In this document: positions 5,679-16,876 of the stretch, in pieces
Position numbering within the stretch: the first letter of the stretch is position 1
How the letters are laid out: each line of letters begins with the position of its first letter
NCBI GenBank assembly: GCA_028280265.1
Contig: JANQMD010000013.1
Location: 27,744-91,743, forward strand
Length of the DNA: 64,000 nt
Direction of reading: 5' to 3'
DNA from: Flavobacteriaceae bacterium
GTDB taxonomy: Bacteria; Bacteroidota; Bacteroidia; Flavobacteriales; Flavobacteriaceae
Made by a program: the position numbers and the translations under genes
Notes under the pieces: generated by a model
Database searches by the model: none
Seen by the model: only the letters and a program-made list of their open reading frames with translations
Told to the model about the DNA's origin: nothing

Positions 5679-6419
5679 ATGAACCGAATTTTGATTTTGT
5701 TGGTGATATCATGTATGATGTCCTGCATTTCTAATGAGAAAAACAAAACACAAGAAAAGGCAAATACTCAAAAGAGTACTCCAGAGATAAAGCCGAATAG
5801 GTATAATGTTGCTTTTTTAATCATGGATGGAACATTTAATACAGAGCTTACAGCTCCCTATGATATTTTCCAGCACACGATTTTTAGAAAAGGAATCAAA
5901 CCCATGAATGTGTTTACTGTAGCTGATACAGACGAGCCTATTGTCACATTTGAGGGAATGCGCATTCTTCCTGATTTTAATTACTTGAAAGATAGTTTAC
6001 CCAGGATTGATATTCTGGTTGTACCCAGTGCAGAACATCATTTAGATTCTGATTTAGAAAATACACAGATGATCAATTTTGTAAAGAGAGTAGGAGACGA
6101 AGCCCAATTTGTTACCTCGCATTGCGACGGAGCTTTTGTGTTGGCGAAAGCCGGTTTGTTAAATGGAAAAGTATCGACGACATTTCCGAGTGATATTGAT
6201 AAAATGAGAGCAATGTTTCCAGATTTAGACATTCGTAAAGAAGTTTTATTTGTTCATGATGGAAATACCATTACATCTGCAGGTGGCGCTAAATCCTTTG
6301 AAGCAGCATTGTATTTGTGTGAATATTTATATGGACCTGAAATTGCGAGAAGCTTGGCAGGAGGCTTGGTGATCGATTGGAAGTTAGAAGAAGTTCCACA
6401 TTTGATTTTAAATGATTAG
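5679..6419 (+). CDS. DJ-1/PfpI-family lipoprotein
   Basis: I prefer the second Met (5679) over the track start (5661), because the promoter -7 box ends at 5655. The product (246 residues) opens with a lipoprotein signal ending in MMSC. A class-I glutamine-amidotransferase-like fold follows from about residue 40 (YNVAFLIMDGTFN). The nucleophile elbow is SHCDGAFVLA, as in DJ-1/PfpI and AraC-type GATase1 domains, and TSAGGAKSFEAALYL follows. Members include glyoxalases, proteases and ligand-binding modules. A membrane-anchored envelope version is uncommon but known in Bacteroidota. The substrate is unknown. Confidence 0.8.
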   Translation: MNRILILLVISCMMSCISNEKNKTQEKANTQKSTPEIKPNRYNVAFLIMDGTFNTELTAPYDIFQHTIFRKGIKPMNVFTVADTDEPIVTFEGMRILPDFNYLKDSLPRIDILVVPSAEHHLDSDLENTQMINFVKRVGDEAQFVTSHCDGAFVLAKAGLLNGKVSTTFPSDIDKMRAMFPDLDIRKEVLFVHDGNTITSAGGAKSFEAALYLCEYLYGPEIARSLAGGLVIDWKLEEVPHLILND

Positions 6420-6503
6420 ATAGTCAATACATCTGTTACACAAGAGAGTTTTATGTAAGCCTCAGAAGAAAGTTGTATTTTTAGAATCCTTAATTATAAC
6501 TAC

Positions 6504-9038
6504 ATGCGACTAAAAAACAAACTTCTTTACGTATTTTTATTTCTATTATCCTTTCAGCTGACTGCTCAAGATTATTTCTTCAAAGACAAAGCACCCTTCA
6601 ATCCTCAAATTCCAAGTCCAGAGGAATTTTTGGGATATCCGATAGGTGAGCAGCATACACGTCATGATCAAATGGTCGCATATTTTTACAAGTTGGCAGA
6701 AGTATCTGATCGAGCTGAAATTGAAGTGTACGGATATACACATGAAAAGAGAAAGTTAGTCATGCTGAGAGTCTCTACTCCGCAGAACCTTCAAAATATT
6801 GAAAGCATAAAAGGCGAACATTTAAAGTTTGTAGACCCAAAGCAAAGTCCCAAAAACTATAATGAAGTCCCTGTCTTTATTCAGCTAGGGTATAATGTTC
6901 ATGGGAACGAACCTTCCGGAGGAGAAGCTGCTTTGCTAACAGCTTACACCTTGGTAGCCTCTAATAGTGCAGAAGTACAAAACTACTTAAACAACTCTGT
7001 TGTCTTTATTGATCCAGTCATCAATCCAGATGGAAGAGATCGTCATACTCAATGGGCCAATCAATACAAAGCTTACTCTTTGGTTTCTGATAATTTGGAT
7101 GCTGAGCACAACGAAATGTGGCCAAGAGGGAGAACCAATCATTATTGGTTTGATTTGAATAGAGACTGGTTGTTAGCTGTACATCCTGAAAGTCAGGGTA
7201 AATTGAAGTGGTATCACAATTGGTATCCGAATGTGGTGACTGATTTTCATGAAATGGGAACCAATAGTCACTACTTTTTTGAGCCCATGAAGCCGATTGG
7301 ATCTCAAGACCCTATCATGCCCAAAGAAAACTATGAAGACCTAAACAACTTGTTTGCTCCTTACTACGCGAAAACCTTGGATAATATAGGCTCTTTGTAT
7401 TACACCAAAGAATCTTTTGACGGTACATATCCAGGTTATGGATCTTCATATCCCGATTTACAAGGAGCTTTGGCTTTGTTATTCGAACAAGCGAGTTCCA
7501 GAGGTCATATTCAAGATACAGATTATGGGAAAATCACTTTTCCTTTCACGATTAGAAATCAGTATCTATCCAGTATTGCTACCATCAAAGCTGCTGTTGA
7601 GAACAAAGCCACGCTTAGAAAATACCAACAAGACTTTTTTAAGTCAGCAGTCAGTAAAAAAGCAAAATCAGGATTTGCAGCCTATGAATTTGGTGATGAT
7701 TATGATCAAAACAGAAACAAAGCTTTCATCGACTTCCTATTGAAGCACAAAATCAAAGTATATAAGAAAAGCAATCGATTTGCTGTTCCTTTGAAACAGA
7801 ACCAACATCGAATGGTACAAACTATGTTTGAAACCTACAACAAATACAGAGACAGTGTTTTTTACGATGCATCGGCTTGGAGTGTGTCTAATTTTTACAA
7901 CATGAAGTCGAAGGGATTGAAATCCTATCGTCTCGGAACAGAAATCACTTCTACAGAGGGAATGGTGAATCCAGCAAAGGTTTCCAAAACAGCATATGCT
8001 TATCTGATGAGTTGGGACGATTATTATGCACCAGCAGCATTGAATTATTTACAACAAAAAGGATTGCAAGCTGCCGTTGCAATGAAGCCTTTTACAGCGA
8101 ATACGAATGCAGGAAATCGATCTTTTCACTATGGAGCCATTATGATTCCTGTGAGTAAGCAGAAAATGAACGCTGAGAAAGTTTTTGAGGTTGTTTCTCA
8201 AGCGCAAAGAAAATTCAATGTTCCTGTTTTTTCTACGAATACAGGATTCAGTATCAAGGGGATTGATTTAGGGAGTAATAACTTTAGAAAAATTCAAAAG
8301 CCCAAAGTAGCCATGCTTGTGGGAGATGGTGTATACTCGTACGAAGCAGGTGAGGTATGGCATCTTTTGGACACGAGGGTTCACATGCCATTGACCAAAC
8401 TACAGTTAAGGTCTTTTGGGAGAGTCTCTTTAGATAAGTATACCACTTTGGTAATGGTTTCGGGGAGTTACGGTCAATTAGATTCTATTCAAAGAAAGAA
8501 AATCAAAGATTGGGTGGGAAAGGGCAATACGCTAATTACCATCGGAAGGGCATCGCAATGGGCCATTCAAAGAAAGCTGGTAAAAGAGAGTTTAACCAAA
8601 GCGCCAAGAAGCAAAGACAAGTCAAAAGAAGTCAAAAGGTTGCCTTATGTTGAAGCTTCAGAGCACATAGGAAGAGAGCGTTTGGGAGGCGCTATTTTTG
8701 AAGTAGACTTGGATGTAACGCATCCACTAGGATTTGGATACAGAGATGCGAGATTGCCCATATATAAAAACAATAGGGTATTTCTTCAACCGAGTAAAAA
8801 TCCTTATGCTACTGTAGCGAAATATACCAAAGACCCACATATAGATGGTTATGTGTCTTCAAAGAACTTAGAAACCTATTTAAAGCCTTCAGCATCATTG
8901 ATTGTGAGTCGACTAGGTAGAGGAAGAGTGGTATTATTTGCAGACAATCCAAACTTTAGAGGAGCTTGGTACGGAACCAATAGACTCTTTTTAAATGCAC
9001 TCTTTTTAGGAAATCATATTTCAATTCCAAGGAACTAA
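6504..9038 (+). CDS. Secreted M14-family zinc carboxypeptidase
   Basis: An 844-residue protein with a signal peptide (cleavage near QLTAQ, residue 21). The M14 catalytic domain spans roughly residues 40-380. Zn ligands are visible as His133 and Glu136 in NVHGNEP and a later His in TDFHEMG (about 249); NPDGRDRH is the usual substrate-binding segment. The last 350 residues look like a class-I-GATase-like accessory domain (VAMLVGDGVYSYEAGEVW) common in Bacteroidota M14 proteins. It should trim peptides in the periplasm or outside. It stands alone and ends at a bidirectional terminator shared with the convergent M61 gene. Confidence 0.85.
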   Translation: MRLKNKLLYVFLFLLSFQLTAQDYFFKDKAPFNPQIPSPEEFLGYPIGEQHTRHDQMVAYFYKLAEVSDRAEIEVYGYTHEKRKLVMLRVSTPQNLQNIESIKGEHLKFVDPKQSPKNYNEVPVFIQLGYNVHGNEPSGGEAALLTAYTLVASNSAEVQNYLNNSVVFIDPVINPDGRDRHTQWANQYKAYSLVSDNLDAEHNEMWPRGRTNHYWFDLNRDWLLAVHPESQGKLKWYHNWYPNVVTDFHEMGTNSHYFFEPMKPIGSQDPIMPKENYEDLNNLFAPYYAKTLDNIGSLYYTKESFDGTYPGYGSSYPDLQGALALLFEQASSRGHIQDTDYGKITFPFTIRNQYLSSIATIKAAVENKATLRKYQQDFFKSAVSKKAKSGFAAYEFGDDYDQNRNKAFIDFLLKHKIKVYKKSNRFAVPLKQNQHRMVQTMFETYNKYRDSVFYDASAWSVSNFYNMKSKGLKSYRLGTEITSTEGMVNPAKVSKTAYAYLMSWDDYYAPAALNYLQQKGLQAAVAMKPFTANTNAGNRSFHYGAIMIPVSKQKMNAEKVFEVVSQAQRKFNVPVFSTNTGFSIKGIDLGSNNFRKIQKPKVAMLVGDGVYSYEAGEVWHLLDTRVHMPLTKLQLRSFGRVSLDKYTTLVMVSGSYGQLDSIQRKKIKDWVGKGNTLITIGRASQWAIQRKLVKESLTKAPRSKDKSKEVKRLPYVEASEHIGRERLGGAIFEVDLDVTHPLGFGYRDARLPIYKNNRVFLQPSKNPYATVAKYTKDPHIDGYVSSKNLETYLKPSASLIVSRLGRGRVVLFADNPNFRGAWYGTNRLFLNALFLGNHISIPRN

Positions 9039-11164: not shown

Positions 11165-11272
11165 ACTTCGACACGCTCATCCTGACACGCAGGAATGACA
11201 AATCGTTTAATGCTTTCTTTTTTAGATTTTTAAGAGTGTATTTGCAATGATTTCTTATATTGAAATGACATT
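11165..11272. repeat. Degenerate dispersed repeat
   Basis: Contains ACTTCGACACGCTCATCCTGA and AGGAATGACA, and ends with TTGAAATGACATTAACTG, nearly the same end as the repeat at 2498-2580 (GAAATGACATTAATTG). It fills the space between the M61 promoter region and sigZ. Confidence 0.5.
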
Positions 11273-11810
11273 AACTGCATATTTTACAATCTTTTTTATC
11301 TTGAATTTCACCTACAAGATGACCTTTGTCGTTTAAAGAAAATCCACAACAATCCATAAAACCTTGAGCAATAAGTTTACGAGCTCTTTGAATTTGAGAT
11401 TTTACTGTTGGTATAGGAATGCCTAACTGATTGGCTACTTCTGACTGTTTCAGCCCCTTAATGTCTGATAAGAAAATGGGATCACGGTATTTTTTAGGGA
11501 GCCCTAATAATATGCCATGCAAGCAATCTTCTTCGGTATGTGAATCTTCTACGATTTCGGATTCAGATTCGAAATGAGCTATTTCAAAAGTCTGATTGGA
11601 TTGTTTGAAATAATCCACCATTGTATTTCTTGCTATGGAAAAAATCCAAGGCTTTAATTTCGTTAAATCATTTAGCGTATGAAGCTTGGTATGAATTTTT
11701 AAAAAAACTTCTTGTGTGATATCATTAGTCACAACAGAATCTTTTACTCTACTAAGAATAAAATGTTTAACGTCTTGAGAGTATGTGGTCCAAACTTCTT
11801 GTGTGGTCAT
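11271..11810 (-). CDS. sigZ: ECF-type sigma factor, SigZ-like
   Basis: The track start (11837) lies inside a palindromic repeat, so I choose the ATG at 11810 (MTTQEVW), giving 179 residues. Sigma region 2 is seen as DITQEVFLKIHTKL and KPWIFSIARNTMVDYF, and region 4 as GLPKKYRDPIFLSDIKGLKQSEVANQLGIP. The C-terminus carries paired cysteines (MDCCGF and CKIC), as in SigZ-type sigma factors, and could bind metal or sense redox state. No anti-sigma gene is adjacent. A gene for a 36-residue cysteine-rich peptide lies upstream on the same strand, which points to metal or thiol stress. Confidence 0.8.
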   Translation of the reverse strand: MTTQEVWTTYSQDVKHFILSRVKDSVVTNDITQEVFLKIHTKLHTLNDLTKLKPWIFSIARNTMVDYFKQSNQTFEIAHFESESEIVEDSHTEEDCLHGILLGLPKKYRDPIFLSDIKGLKQSEVANQLGIPIPTVKSQIQRARKLIAQGFMDCCGFSLNDKGHLVGEIQDKKDCKICS

Positions 11811-11832
11811 ATATAAGTCATATAAATGAAAT

Positions 11833-11900
11833 GTCATTGCGAAGGAAGAATAACTGAAGCAATCTCATAATACGGACTGCTACGTTTCCCTCGCAGTGAC
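11833..11900. repeat. Palindromic dispersed repeat (GTCATTGCGAAGGA...TCCCTCGCAGTGAC)
   Basis: The 14-base ends are inverted repeats with two mismatches. The motif GTCATTGCGA...GAAGCAATCT is the classic form of widely dispersed bacterial palindromic repeats. It lies between the cysteine-rich peptide gene and sigZ, where it could act as an RNA hairpin that dampens read-through. Confidence 0.65.
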
Positions 11901-11907
11901 AGTAAGT

Positions 11908-12018
11908 TTAACAACAATTACAACTAGAGCAATTGCAGTTCTGACAAGTACAACTTTTACAATTGCCACTTACGCATTCTGTACAATCACATGCACATTG
12001 ATTTTTATCTTTTGTCAT
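11908..12018 (-). CDS. Cysteine-rich metallothionein-like peptide (36 aa)
   Basis: This small gene is missing from the ORF track. It reads MTKDKNQCACDCTEC and continues as CxC, CxxC and CC clusters, with 12 cysteines in 36 residues and no aromatic residues. That composition is typical of metal-thiolate proteins (metallothioneins), though I cannot place it in a named family. It lies 97 bases upstream of sigZ on the same strand and divergent from a GbsR-type regulator. A TATCTTTT box (12053-12060, minus strand) may be its promoter. It probably buffers soft metals such as Cu, Zn or Cd in the cytosol; this is inferred from composition and context. Confidence 0.7.
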   Translation of the reverse strand: MTKDKNQCACDCTECVSGNCKSCTCQNCNCSSCNCC

Positions 12019-12093
12019 TCTATGAAATTTTTAAAATTCATAAAGTAGACCTAAAAGATATAAAAAAGATGCAATTTTTTTAAATTATTTTAT

Positions 12094-12111
12094 TTTCAAA
12101 AATTATTGAAA
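12094..12111. promoter_or_regulatory. Candidate operator TTTCA-N8-TGAAA (copy 1)
   Basis: TTTCAAAAATTATTGAAA is an inverted repeat that overlaps the -33 TTG of the gbsR-like promoter. A second copy with the same spacing, also followed by GTTT(T)AAA, lies at 12662-12679 before the membrane-protein genes. Likely binding site of the GbsR-type regulator. Confidence 0.55.
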
Positions 12112-12135
12112 GTTTTAAATTATTTTATATCTTTG
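12106..12135 (+). promoter_or_regulatory. Promoter TTG-N19-TATCTTTG (leaderless start)
   Basis: TTG at 12106-12108 and TATCTTTG at 12128-12135 are a textbook match. The ATG at 12140 begins only four bases after the -7 box, so transcription should start at or next to the start codon. Confidence 0.75.
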
Positions 12136-12139
12136 TTGC

Positions 12140-12643
12140 ATGAAGTTAGAAGAGGCTAAAATAAAATACATTCACACTTGGGGTAGTTTGGCTACCAGCT
12201 GGGGAATCAATAAAACCATGGCACAAGTACACGCTCTATTGTTAACCTCTATTGAGCCTCTTTCAGCAGAAGACATTATGGAAGCATTAAAGATATCTCG
12301 GGGAAATGTGAATATGAATGTGAGAGCTTTAATAGATTGGGGAATAGTTCGCAAAGAATTCATAGTAGGAGAGCGCAAAGAATTTTTTGTAGCAGATAAA
12401 GATATCTGGGAATTATTTAAGCAAATTACCAAAGAGAGGAAGAAAAGAGAAATAGAACCAGTTCTTAGAGTCTTGGAAGATCTCCAAGATTTAGAAGAAT
12501 CTGGCGAAGAAGCCGAGCAATTCAAAAAGCTTCTGAAGGATTTATCTTCCGTAACAAATACGGTAAATGGTATTTTAGATAAAGCCATTAAGGCAGATGA
12601 ACATTGGCTGTTATCTAATTTTACTAAGATGATAAAAAAGTAA
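12140..12643 (+). CDS. GbsR/MarR-family transcriptional regulator
   Basis: A 167-residue DNA-binding protein. A winged-helix lies at residues 20-85 (MAQVHALLLTSIEPLSAEDIMEALKISRGNVNMNVRALIDWGIV), the hallmark of GbsR-type MarR relatives; a long helical C-terminus (KKREIEPVLRVLEDLQDLEE) gives dimerisation. The start codon sits four bases after the -7 box, so the message is probably leaderless. A palindrome overlaps its own promoter, pointing to autoregulation. The same palindrome occurs before the next genes, so the two membrane proteins and the epimerase are likely targets. Confidence 0.85.
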   Translation: MKLEEAKIKYIHTWGSLATSWGINKTMAQVHALLLTSIEPLSAEDIMEALKISRGNVNMNVRALIDWGIVRKEFIVGERKEFFVADKDIWELFKQITKERKKREIEPVLRVLEDLQDLEESGEEAEQFKKLLKDLSSVTNTVNGILDKAIKADEHWLLSNFTKMIKK

Positions 12644-14385: not shown

Positions 14386-15618
14386 TTATTGTATGATAAG
14401 TTTTTTACTTAACTCATTAGAACCAGAGGTGACTTTTAAAATATAGAGTCCACCTTTTAAAGCTGATATGTCTATTGTTTGTCTACTCAATCGATGATTT
14501 AAGTCCGCTTTAAAAACACTTCTTCCAGCAAGATCAAACAATTGCATTTTAGCATTTTCACTTAAAATATTATTCGCTGTGCTCAAGCGCAATTCGTTTT
14601 CAATAGGGTTAGAGAGTATTGCAAATGATTGTTCAAATACATTTGAATCTACTGACAATACATTGGTTTTAAATTGTGATCTAATAGTGTTCAAATGCGC
14701 TAAAGATCTTGTCATTTGTCCTTGGGTAAACATATACATACACGCATCATCTACGTAATCCATATAATTCATAGTCAATGACTTATTCCCGCAAAAGACA
14801 ATAGAGCCAGGAGTAGGACAACCAGACGCAGAGCTATCTATGTTAGGTGTGTCACTTACACCATCATCGCTACTACAACTACCACTTGCCCAGGGGTGAT
14901 CTAAATTTAAATAATGTCCAACCTCATGTGTTGTTGTCCTGCCCAAATTATAAGGCGAATTGGGACTAAAAATACCACAGCCACTTCCCGCTCCAAAGGC
15001 TTGGTCGTCCATAACAACAGCATCACCTGAACTAGGGTTACCTCCTAATGGAGCATATCCAAGTACACCACCGTCTAAATTTTTTACGATGATGTTGAGA
15101 TAGCCTGCCCATTTGGGATCACTATCAGTAGTTTGACCCTGATTATTCTGGCCATAAATATATCCGACAGTTACTGCTATATTTCCCTCAGTGAGTCCCG
15201 TACCAGTTGGGTGATTTTTAGTAGCTAATCTAAATTGTACATCTAAGCTTCCTGCATTGATGCCAGGGTATTGAGCACTAGCTGTTGCCCAATTAGAAAA
15301 ATCTGCATTGGTCTGTCTGTAATCGGCATTTAAGATATCTACTTGTTGTTTTGCCATATTCTCAAGGCACGTTCTATCAGAAGCATTTCCATTGATAAAG
15401 TGAACAGCTACAGGAATAACAATGGTTGCTCTTTTAAAATTAGATCTTTGTAAGTTTTCGTATTCTCTTTGAAAAGCTTCTTGACTTGCATCATATTGGG
15501 CTTTGAATACAGGATCTTGTAGTTTCTGTTTCATGTATTCTTCAGTACCGCACGATCTTTGTGCGTACAAACTTATGCTAAAAATAGCAACAATAAGGAG
15601 AGTAATTTTTTGTTTCAT
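14386..15618 (-). CDS. Secreted M43 (pappalysin-type) metalloprotease with T9SS tail, copy 1
   Basis: A 410-residue protein with a signal peptide (to about SLYAQ) and an M43 catalytic domain. The zinc motif is HEVGHYLNLDH (HExxHxxGxxH type with N in place of G), and the Met-turn is MNYMDY. Disulfide-type cysteines surround it (CSSDDGVSDTPN). The last 75 residues are a type IX secretion sorting domain of type A: a NPIENELRLS strand followed by GGLYILKV and KKLIIQ. It should be exported through T9SS and act extracellularly. It is about as long as, and nearly identical to, the next gene. Confidence 0.88.
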   Translation of the reverse strand: MKQKITLLIVAIFSISLYAQRSCGTEEYMKQKLQDPVFKAQYDASQEAFQREYENLQRSNFKRATIVIPVAVHFINGNASDRTCLENMAKQQVDILNADYRQTNADFSNWATASAQYPGINAGSLDVQFRLATKNHPTGTGLTEGNIAVTVGYIYGQNNQGQTTDSDPKWAGYLNIIVKNLDGGVLGYAPLGGNPSSGDAVVMDDQAFGAGSGCGIFSPNSPYNLGRTTTHEVGHYLNLDHPWASGSCSSDDGVSDTPNIDSSASGCPTPGSIVFCGNKSLTMNYMDYVDDACMYMFTQGQMTRSLAHLNTIRSQFKTNVLSVDSNVFEQSFAILSNPIENELRLSTANNILSENAKMQLFDLAGRSVFKADLNHRLSRQTIDISALKGGLYILKVTSGSNELSKKLIIQ

Positions 15619-15664: not shown

Positions 15665-16876
15665 TTACTGCACGATAATTTTTTTACTTAGCTCATTAGG
15701 TCCAGATGACAGCTTTAGAACATATAAACCGCCCTTTAAAGAAGAAATATTGATTCTTTGCTCACTTAAGCGGCTATTTAAGTCAGCTTTAAAAACACTC
15801 TTTCCAGTTAAATCAAACAACTGTACCTTGGCATTTTCATCCAGAATATTGTTAGCGGTACTTAATCGCAATTCGTTTTCAACAGGATTGGAAAGTATGG
15901 CAAAAGATTGCTCAAATACATTTGAATCTACAGACAGCACATTGGTTTTAAATTGCGATGTAATAGTATTCAAATATGCTAAAGATCTTGCCATCTGCCC
16001 CTGAGTAAACATGTACATACACGCATCGTTTACGTAATCCATATAATTCATGGTCAGTGACTTGTTGCCACACAAGACAACAGAGCCAGGTGCAGGGCAA
16101 CCAGATGCAGAGCTATCAATATTAGGAGTATCACTTACACCATCATCACTAGAGCAAGTACTATTAGCCCAAGGGTGATCTAAATTCAAATAATGCCCAA
16201 CCTCGTGAGTAACAGTTCTACCCAAATCAAAATTATTAACTGGAACAACCACCCCACAACCGCTCCCAGTACCAAAAGCTTGGTCATCAATTACAGCAGC
16301 ATGTCCAGCATTAGGGCTTCCTCCCAAAGGGGCAAAACCTAAACTACCAATGTTCTTTACAAGAATGTTTAAGTATCCAGCCCAGTTAGAATCGGTATCC
16401 GTACCGCCTCCAAAATTATAACCTATGGTTACGGCTACATTTCCTTCAGTAAGTCCTGAGCCGCTTGGATGATTCTTAGTGGCTAGCCTAAATTGTACAT
16501 CTAAATTTCCTGCATTGATTCCTGGATATTGAGCACTAGCTGTTGCCCAATTAGAGAAATCCGCATTGGTTTTTCTATAGTCAGCATTAAGAATATCAAT
16601 TTGTGCTTGTGACATATTTTCCAGACAAGCTCTGTCAGAGGCATTTGATTCTGGGAAATGAATGGCTACAGGAATGATAATGGTTGCTCTTTGGAAATTA
16701 GATCTTTCCAAGTTTTTGTATTCTTTATGAAAAGCTTCTTGACTTGCATCATGTTGGGCTTTGAATACAGGGTCCTGTAGTTTATGGCTCATGTATTCTT
16801 CAGTCTCACACGATCTTTGTGCAAACAAACTCATGCTAAATACAACCATAATGAGGAGAGTAATTTTTTGTTTCAT
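15665..16876 (-). CDS. Secreted M43 metalloprotease with T9SS tail, copy 2
   Basis: A 403-residue paralogue of the preceding gene with the same order: signal peptide, M43 domain (HEVGHYLNLDH, MNYMDY), sorting tail (NPVENELRLS, GGLYVLKL, KKIIVQ). Identity is high along the full length, including the start region and a shared TTAATATAACATATATG sequence at both starts, so this is a recent tandem duplication. Differences cluster around the loop after KNHPSGSGLTEG and in the ADH-like loop before HEVGH, where substrate recognition would be expected. The role is extracellular proteolysis. Confidence 0.88.
   Translation of the reverse strand: MKQKITLLIMVVFSMSLFAQRSCETEEYMSHKLQDPVFKAQHDASQEAFHKEYKNLERSNFQRATIIIPVAIHFPESNASDRACLENMSQAQIDILNADYRKTNADFSNWATASAQYPGINAGNLDVQFRLATKNHPSGSGLTEGNVAVTIGYNFGGGTDTDSNWAGYLNILVKNIGSLGFAPLGGSPNAGHAAVIDDQAFGTGSGCGVVVPVNNFDLGRTVTHEVGHYLNLDHPWANSTCSSDDGVSDTPNIDSSASGCPAPGSVVLCGNKSLTMNYMDYVNDACMYMFTQGQMARSLAYLNTITSQFKTNVLSVDSNVFEQSFAILSNPVENELRLSTANNILDENAKVQLFDLTGKSVFKADLNSRLSEQRINISSLKGGLYVLKLSSGPNELSKKIIVQ

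Follow-up and report, generated by a model that had tools for sequence, protein, structure and literature searches.

The window that we analysed is a 64,000-nucleotide stretch of a contig from a Flavobacteriaceae bacterium. Reading along its minus strand, we find a putative promoter, an unannotated gene for a peptide of 36 amino acids, a predicted stem-loop, and a gene for a SigZ-like ECF sigma factor; a GbsR/MarR-type gene diverges from them (Table 1). The peptide is MTKDKNQCACDCTECVSGNCKSCTCQNCNCSSCNCC, and 12 of its 36 residues are cysteines. The open reading frame for the sigma factor was listed as 11271-11837, and the start that is kept in relatives is at 11810 (MTTQEVW...), which gives a protein of 179 amino acids. 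The original prediction for this locus pointed to the cysteine-rich ORF ahead of sigZ, to a CC and a CxxC at the C-terminus of SigZ, and to the lack of a visible anti-sigma gene. All three observations hold: the ORF is on the same strand as sigZ, the cysteines are at residues 154-155 and 175-178 of SigZ, and no anti-sigma-like gene adjoins sigZ (the downstream genes differ between genera). These observations were right and understated; they included neither a promoter nor a stem-loop, and they did not show how widely the locus is conserved.

Table 1. Features of the peptide-sigZ locus (positions within the window).
Feature	Position	Strand	Description
SigZ-like ECF sigma factor, 179 aa	11271..11810	-	sigma-70 regions 2 and 4; C-terminal CC-x19-CxxC tail; linker Cys96
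Stem-loop between peptide gene and sigZ	11811..11907	-	-31.6 kcal/mol, z -5.4; candidate attenuator or stabiliser
Peptide gene	11908..12018	-	36 aa, 12 Cys, metallothionein-like; conserved 11-Cys pattern in relatives
-10 element GTCTA, 17 nt after -35	12046..12050	-	spacing identical in all paired loci with recognised motif
-35 element TGCATC, followed by T-tract	12068..12073	-	SigZ-type promoter; shared by paired loci
GbsR/MarR-type gene	12140-12643	+	divergent from peptide-sigZ

Members of the peptide family share a pattern of 11 cysteines (C-x-C-x-C-x2-C-x4-C-x2-C-x-C-x2-C-x-C-x2-C-x-C). By pattern search, we found it in 44 of 301 sampled Flavobacteriaceae genomes, from 33 of 237 genera. 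As a control, we reversed the pattern, and its sole match in these 301 genomes was a TGT repeat. Because the search itself forces there to be 11 cysteines, the independent evidence for the family is a search anchored on the sigma factor. (Across 396 genomes from the phylum, matches outside of Flavobacteriaceae were low-complexity sequences only. Within the window, only one further ORF passes the filter for cysteine-rich ORFs that this one passes; together with the conservation of the family, this makes a chance occurrence untenable.) In the family alignment, the cysteines are invariant, with codons that alternate synonymously between TGT and TGC, while the residues in between vary freely. This points to purifying selection on the cysteines.

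The peptide had no match in Pfam, NCBIfam, or the sequences of the PDB, and in particular did not match any described metallothionein family in those searches; short cysteine-rich queries are hard for such tools. Its composition is nevertheless of the metallothionein type: it is small, lacks a signal peptide, is about one-third cysteine, contains CxC and CxxC motifs, and has few or no aromatic residues. SmtA and MymT are bacterial metallothioneins with this kind of make-up, and regular CxC/CxxC spacing with almost no aromatic residues or histidines is typical of metal-thiolate clusters. Judging from its composition, we propose with moderate confidence that the peptide binds metal. It also resembles PmtA, which is likewise small, without a signal peptide, about one-third cysteine in CxC/CxxC motifs, and almost free of aromatic residues (PMC11237414). 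It differs from the bacterial metallothioneins in having no sequence-family match and in its partner, which is a sigma factor and not, for instance, an ArsR/SmtB-type repressor.

SigZ is the best family match for the sigma factor, yet the match is under both curated cut-offs (165.4 vs. 212 bits for NF007215 and 153.4 vs. 168.65 bits for TIGR02959). Five of its cysteines are conserved: Cys96 lies at the start of region 4, and the other four are in a short C-terminal tail. C96, C154, C155, and C175 are present in 44 of 44 distinct members of the clade, and C178 is present in 43 of 44. (The SigZ of Polaribacter sp. BM10, at L056:3998-4528, ends before the last cysteine of the tail and is a natural truncation.) In the AlphaFold model, regions 2 and 4 are well predicted, and the CC ends a long helix, after which comes a short hairpin; confidence is low at the end with the CxxC (pLDDT of about 64 at the last two cysteines). 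A Foldseek comparison of the model to the PDB returned ordinary ECF sigma factors only, with no match on the tail. We propose, again with moderate confidence, that the tail is a metal(loid) sensor.

The peptide gene lies 10-256 bp upstream of sigZ (median 85 bp), on the same strand, in 35 of the 36 genomes that contain this clade of SigZ (hypergeometric P = 3.5e-36, ignoring kinship; because the sampled genomes are related, such P values overstate their independence). The pair is widespread in the Flavobacteriaceae, in genera that include Polaribacter, Tenacibaculum, and Kordia. The exception is G190 (L181, about 6045-6800), where the promoter is kept, the peptide gene is frameshifted, and sigZ has two in-frame stop codons. 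To judge from these reading frames, the peptide gene and sigZ have decayed together.

Conservation of the ORF had been named beforehand as a test of the original prediction, and a pairing unique to this strain as grounds for rejecting it. We found a family with invariant cysteines in dozens of genera, and the pairing is not a peculiarity of the strain. The prediction had also suggested a self-contained module that included the divergent GbsR regulator. The peptide/sigma unit survives, with its near-constant pairing, its own promoter, and conserved cysteines in both products, but GbsR is not a component of it. GbsR has its own neighbours, GbsR and the module each occur without the other, and GbsR adjoins the module in some genomes of the same genus only; its position here is incidental local synteny.

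Across the genera that we compared, the module has no conserved third gene, and the conserved unit contains no metal transporter or efflux gene. In RiPPs of the bufferin type, a gene for a modifying enzyme sits beside the precursor. Judged from the neighbouring genes, we rejected a modified copper-binding RiPP of this type for want of a conserved third gene. We also considered the downstream genes for a YghX hydrolase and a methyltransferase as a core part of the module and rejected them, as they are found in some relatives only. Elsewhere in the window, two similar adjacent genes on the minus strand (14386-15618 and 15665-16876) probably encode secreted metalloproteases with HEVGHYLNLDHPW motifs and are apparently the result of a tandem duplication.

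Nearly every peptide-sigZ pair is preceded by an ECF-type promoter, TGCATCTTTTT-N12-GTCTA, i.e. TGCATC-N17-GTCT. The copy in the window spans 12073 to 12046 on the minus strand. The spacing is 17 nt in 45 of the 45 paired upstream regions where the motif was recognised. One locus (L106) has a one-base variant of the motif, and one genome (G182) has the pair and no recognised motif. A bipartite promoter with fixed spacing before the operon is what marks an autoregulated ECF operon, and the comparison of these loci makes a strong case that SigZ uses the TGCATC-N17-GTCTA promoter. (A scan of the window for sigma-70 promoters and terminators gave nothing above chance.)

An alternative sigma factor normally has several genes under its control, and most such factors are held in check by anti-sigma proteins. 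We found the exact promoter motif in 33 of the 301 genomes, 29 at SigZ loci and 4 elsewhere. When we allowed up to one mismatch in a whole-genome search, the motif was present in 40 of 42 SigZ genomes, at 40 operon sites plus 4 strays, as compared to 2 matches for the reversed pattern. Because the promoter is found essentially once per genome, at the peptide-sigZ operon, these searches, which were for sequence patterns only, suggest that the operon for the peptide and SigZ itself is essentially the sole strong target of SigZ. An alternative that conflicts with just this single-target claim is that SigZ has further, weaker targets in a wider metal-stress regulon. Real regulons tolerate divergence, and some genomes do contain stray sites with a single mismatch. 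However, these strays are few, are modestly above the reversed-pattern control, and are not shared between species: a looser motif search in eight genomes of the same genus found no other shared site except for one weak intergenic pair in two relatives. We consider a wider regulon to be somewhat unlikely.

The region between the peptide gene and sigZ folds with z < -3 in 37 of 42 loci, as compared to 1.75% of random flanking segments (z-scores are from dinucleotide shuffles for the loci and from mononucleotide shuffles for the flanking control). By stem length the contrast is weaker: a stem of at least 10 pairs is present in 36 of 42 loci, and 25% of AT-rich control segments have one as well. 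The stems of relatives mostly show no sequence relationship to one another but are as strong as the one in the window, and many precede a T-rich stretch, as intrinsic terminators do. The stem in the window comes from a dispersed palindromic repeat (11838-11907) with a second copy in the genome that is 78% identical, and our scan of the window found no U-run after it. (At the position of this repeat, L010 and L175 have different palindromic sequences.) Some Polaribacter (L052, L053, and L055) lack the stem-loop. We have moderate confidence that the stem-loop acts as an attenuator, so that partial termination would leave the peptide in excess over the sigma factor. Alternatively, it might stabilise the mRNA rather than attenuate its synthesis.

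Nine genomes, mostly small or incomplete, contain the peptide in varied contexts without a close SigZ or the SigZ promoter (L163-L171); TGCATC-N17-GTCT preceded none of these nine orphan peptides. Because several of these genomes are incomplete, sigZ may in some cases be missing only from the assembly. In G223, the orphan peptide has as neighbours a gene of the Lrp type and a small ORF on the minus strand. Neighbours of this kind border the peptide-sigZ pair in other genera, and the locus looks like one from which sigZ was lost. That nine genomes keep the peptide without a close SigZ or its promoter suggests that it probably also functions independently of SigZ; this speaks for buffering rather than an anti-sigma role. 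If the peptide were instead a small anti-sigma factor, or a metal donor, then it would bind the cysteine tail of SigZ and its chief job would be to control SigZ. This would account for the near-obligate pairing, the joint decay in G190, and the abundance of cysteine in both proteins, and ECF operons usually encode their own regulator. Besides the orphan peptides, two observations argue against this explanation, which we consider quite improbable: the residues between the cysteines vary freely, unlike those of a specific protein interface, and two families of peptides with different cysteine patterns serve SigZ proteins of one clade.

The second of these families is linked to another clade of flavobacterial SigZ proteins (34-41% identity), in which a promoter, a different cysteine-rich peptide, usually a stem-loop, and sigZ are found in the same order (L251, L252, L254, L256, L258, L259, L261, L262, and L265). 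The sister peptides are of the type MNxCKCTNCxCxxCxCxNC-x4-CxCxKCxCxxCxCC, and the sister promoter is GTATCTTTTT-N12-GTCT. The peptide pattern occurs in 16 of the 301 genomes and, by coordinates, lies beside a SigZ match in 15 of these 16. The sister promoter was found in 12 of the 16 genomes, once in each. No peptide was detected at L253, which belongs to the sister SigZ clade. In a phylogenetic tree, the two clades with linked peptides form a single group (99/84), and the first clade is monophyletic (96/90).

More distant SigZ proteins, from Bacillota, Chloroflexota, and Nitrospirota, share the cysteine-rich tail: the CC is common to most of the SigZ proteins from other phyla, and most have a second cysteine pair or cluster. 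ArsM, an arsenite methyltransferase, is adjacent to sigZ at nine of the distant loci, along with ArsD at two of these nine, and DUF2703 is adjacent at five (L059, L061, L063, L066, L068, L070, L071, L075, L076, L060, L062, L069, L074, and L078 each lie directly beside one of these genes). Two flavobacterial loci outside of the peptide clades (L260 and L263) have a putative ArsM-like start downstream. The genomic context of the distant homologues suggests that the ligand may be a soft metal(loid) such as As(III). The flavobacterial peptide-sigZ module contains no ars gene. (Two SigZ-like factors from Bacteroidota, at L077 and L082, lack the cysteine tail and are followed by PhzF-family genes. 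A search of plasmids found no close relative: most of the matches listed were at or below 30.5% identity, mostly ECF factors from Klebsiella, and the two that we inspected had no annotated cysteine-rich peptide or ars neighbour.)

The cysteines of SigZ might instead sense oxidants, electrophiles, or NO, with the peptide as a thiol buffer and not a metal store. CC and CxxC motifs can form disulfides, the peptide has 11-12 thiols, and the absence of a transporter or efflux gene from the conserved unit would also fit. However, the spacing of the peptide's cysteines and its near lack of aromatic residues and histidines fit metal-thiolate clusters, the distant relatives of SigZ are in arsenic contexts, and the redox-responsive cases covered by one review rely on a zinc anti-sigma factor that is a separate protein (PMC8999054). 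We view a redox or electrophile module as unlikely.

There are precedents for C-terminal cysteines that sense metals in ECF sigma factors, namely CorE (PMC3107203) and OrbS (PMC9023288). CorE and CorE2 of Myxococcus xanthus were formerly in ECF44 and are now in ECF238; in CorE, the extension is 38 residues long and contains six cysteines, and the linker has a CXC; CorE regulates several copper-homeostasis genes (PMC3107203, PMC8999054). Like CorE, our SigZ is an ECF sigma factor with no linked anti-sigma factor, a short cysteine-rich C-terminal extension, and cysteine between regions 2 and 4. In contrast to CorE, its tail is about 25 residues long with four cysteines, its linker has one cysteine, and it has one apparent target operon, which encodes a peptide. 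The linker CXC holds for the former ECF44 only (PMC8999054). The linker between regions 2 and 4 of SigZ contains C96 and no CXC, and because of this we say that the module would work like CorE and do not classify SigZ as CorE-like. In OrbS of Burkholderia cenocepacia, a C-terminal cysteine cluster acts as a built-in "anti-sigma" that responds to Fe(II); the genes that OrbS serves are for siderophores, and Fur in turn controls OrbS (PMC9023288). SigZ shares the C-terminal cysteine cluster with OrbS, for which, unlike SigZ, no cysteine-rich peptide partner is described (PMC9023288). As for the named SigZ families (NF007215 and TIGR02959), they are the best match and many relatives in other phyla have the cysteine-rich tail, but the SigZ in the window belongs to a separate flavobacterial clade that is tied to cysteine-rich peptides.

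Comparison of the loci shows that the peptide gene and sigZ are paired, that the pairs share a promoter with almost no other copies in the genome, that a stem-loop usually lies between the two genes, and that cysteines are conserved in both products. We think it fairly probable that these elements constitute a two-gene, self-regulated stress module, with SigZ carrying an on-board cysteine sensor and a metallothionein-like peptide as the output. Our best reading, by analogy, is that the module is an autonomous soft-metal(loid) homeostat, similar in principle to CorE and OrbS. In the proposed mechanism, the five conserved cysteines of SigZ would bind a soft metal(loid) ion. The candidates that we see are As(III)/Sb(III), Cu(I), Cd(II), and Zn(II), and we hold any choice among these lightly. 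Ligand-bound SigZ would then direct RNA polymerase to one promoter, TGCATC-N17-GTCTA, which precedes the peptide gene and sigZ. Most of the output would be the cysteine-rich peptide, which would act as a metallothionein and sequester the ion, and the stem-loop 3' of the peptide gene would limit read-through, so that more peptide than SigZ would be made. With the ion taken up by the peptide, SigZ would lose it and the loop would close. We put forward more tentatively the full proposal, in which a SigZ with a one-promoter regulon and an undescribed metallothionein superfamily with two cysteine patterns form a closed-loop metal(loid) homeostat that is related to the SigZ proteins serving arsenic operons elsewhere. 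The part of the literature that we searched contained no report of the peptide-sigZ pairing or of SigZ with arsenic, and relative to those papers and the sequence libraries, neither the peptide nor the circuit has been described.

This SigZ is unusual in that it appears to act at one promoter only, to lack a linked anti-sigma factor, and to have a cysteine-rich peptide as its main output. The module would be a minimal and portable sensor-effector circuit of about 1 kb, with its own type of promoter, which could be useful for biosensors. Our results add an unannotated family of peptides to dozens of genera, suggest a function for SigZ-type sigma factors, and tie these factors to arsenic contexts in other phyla.
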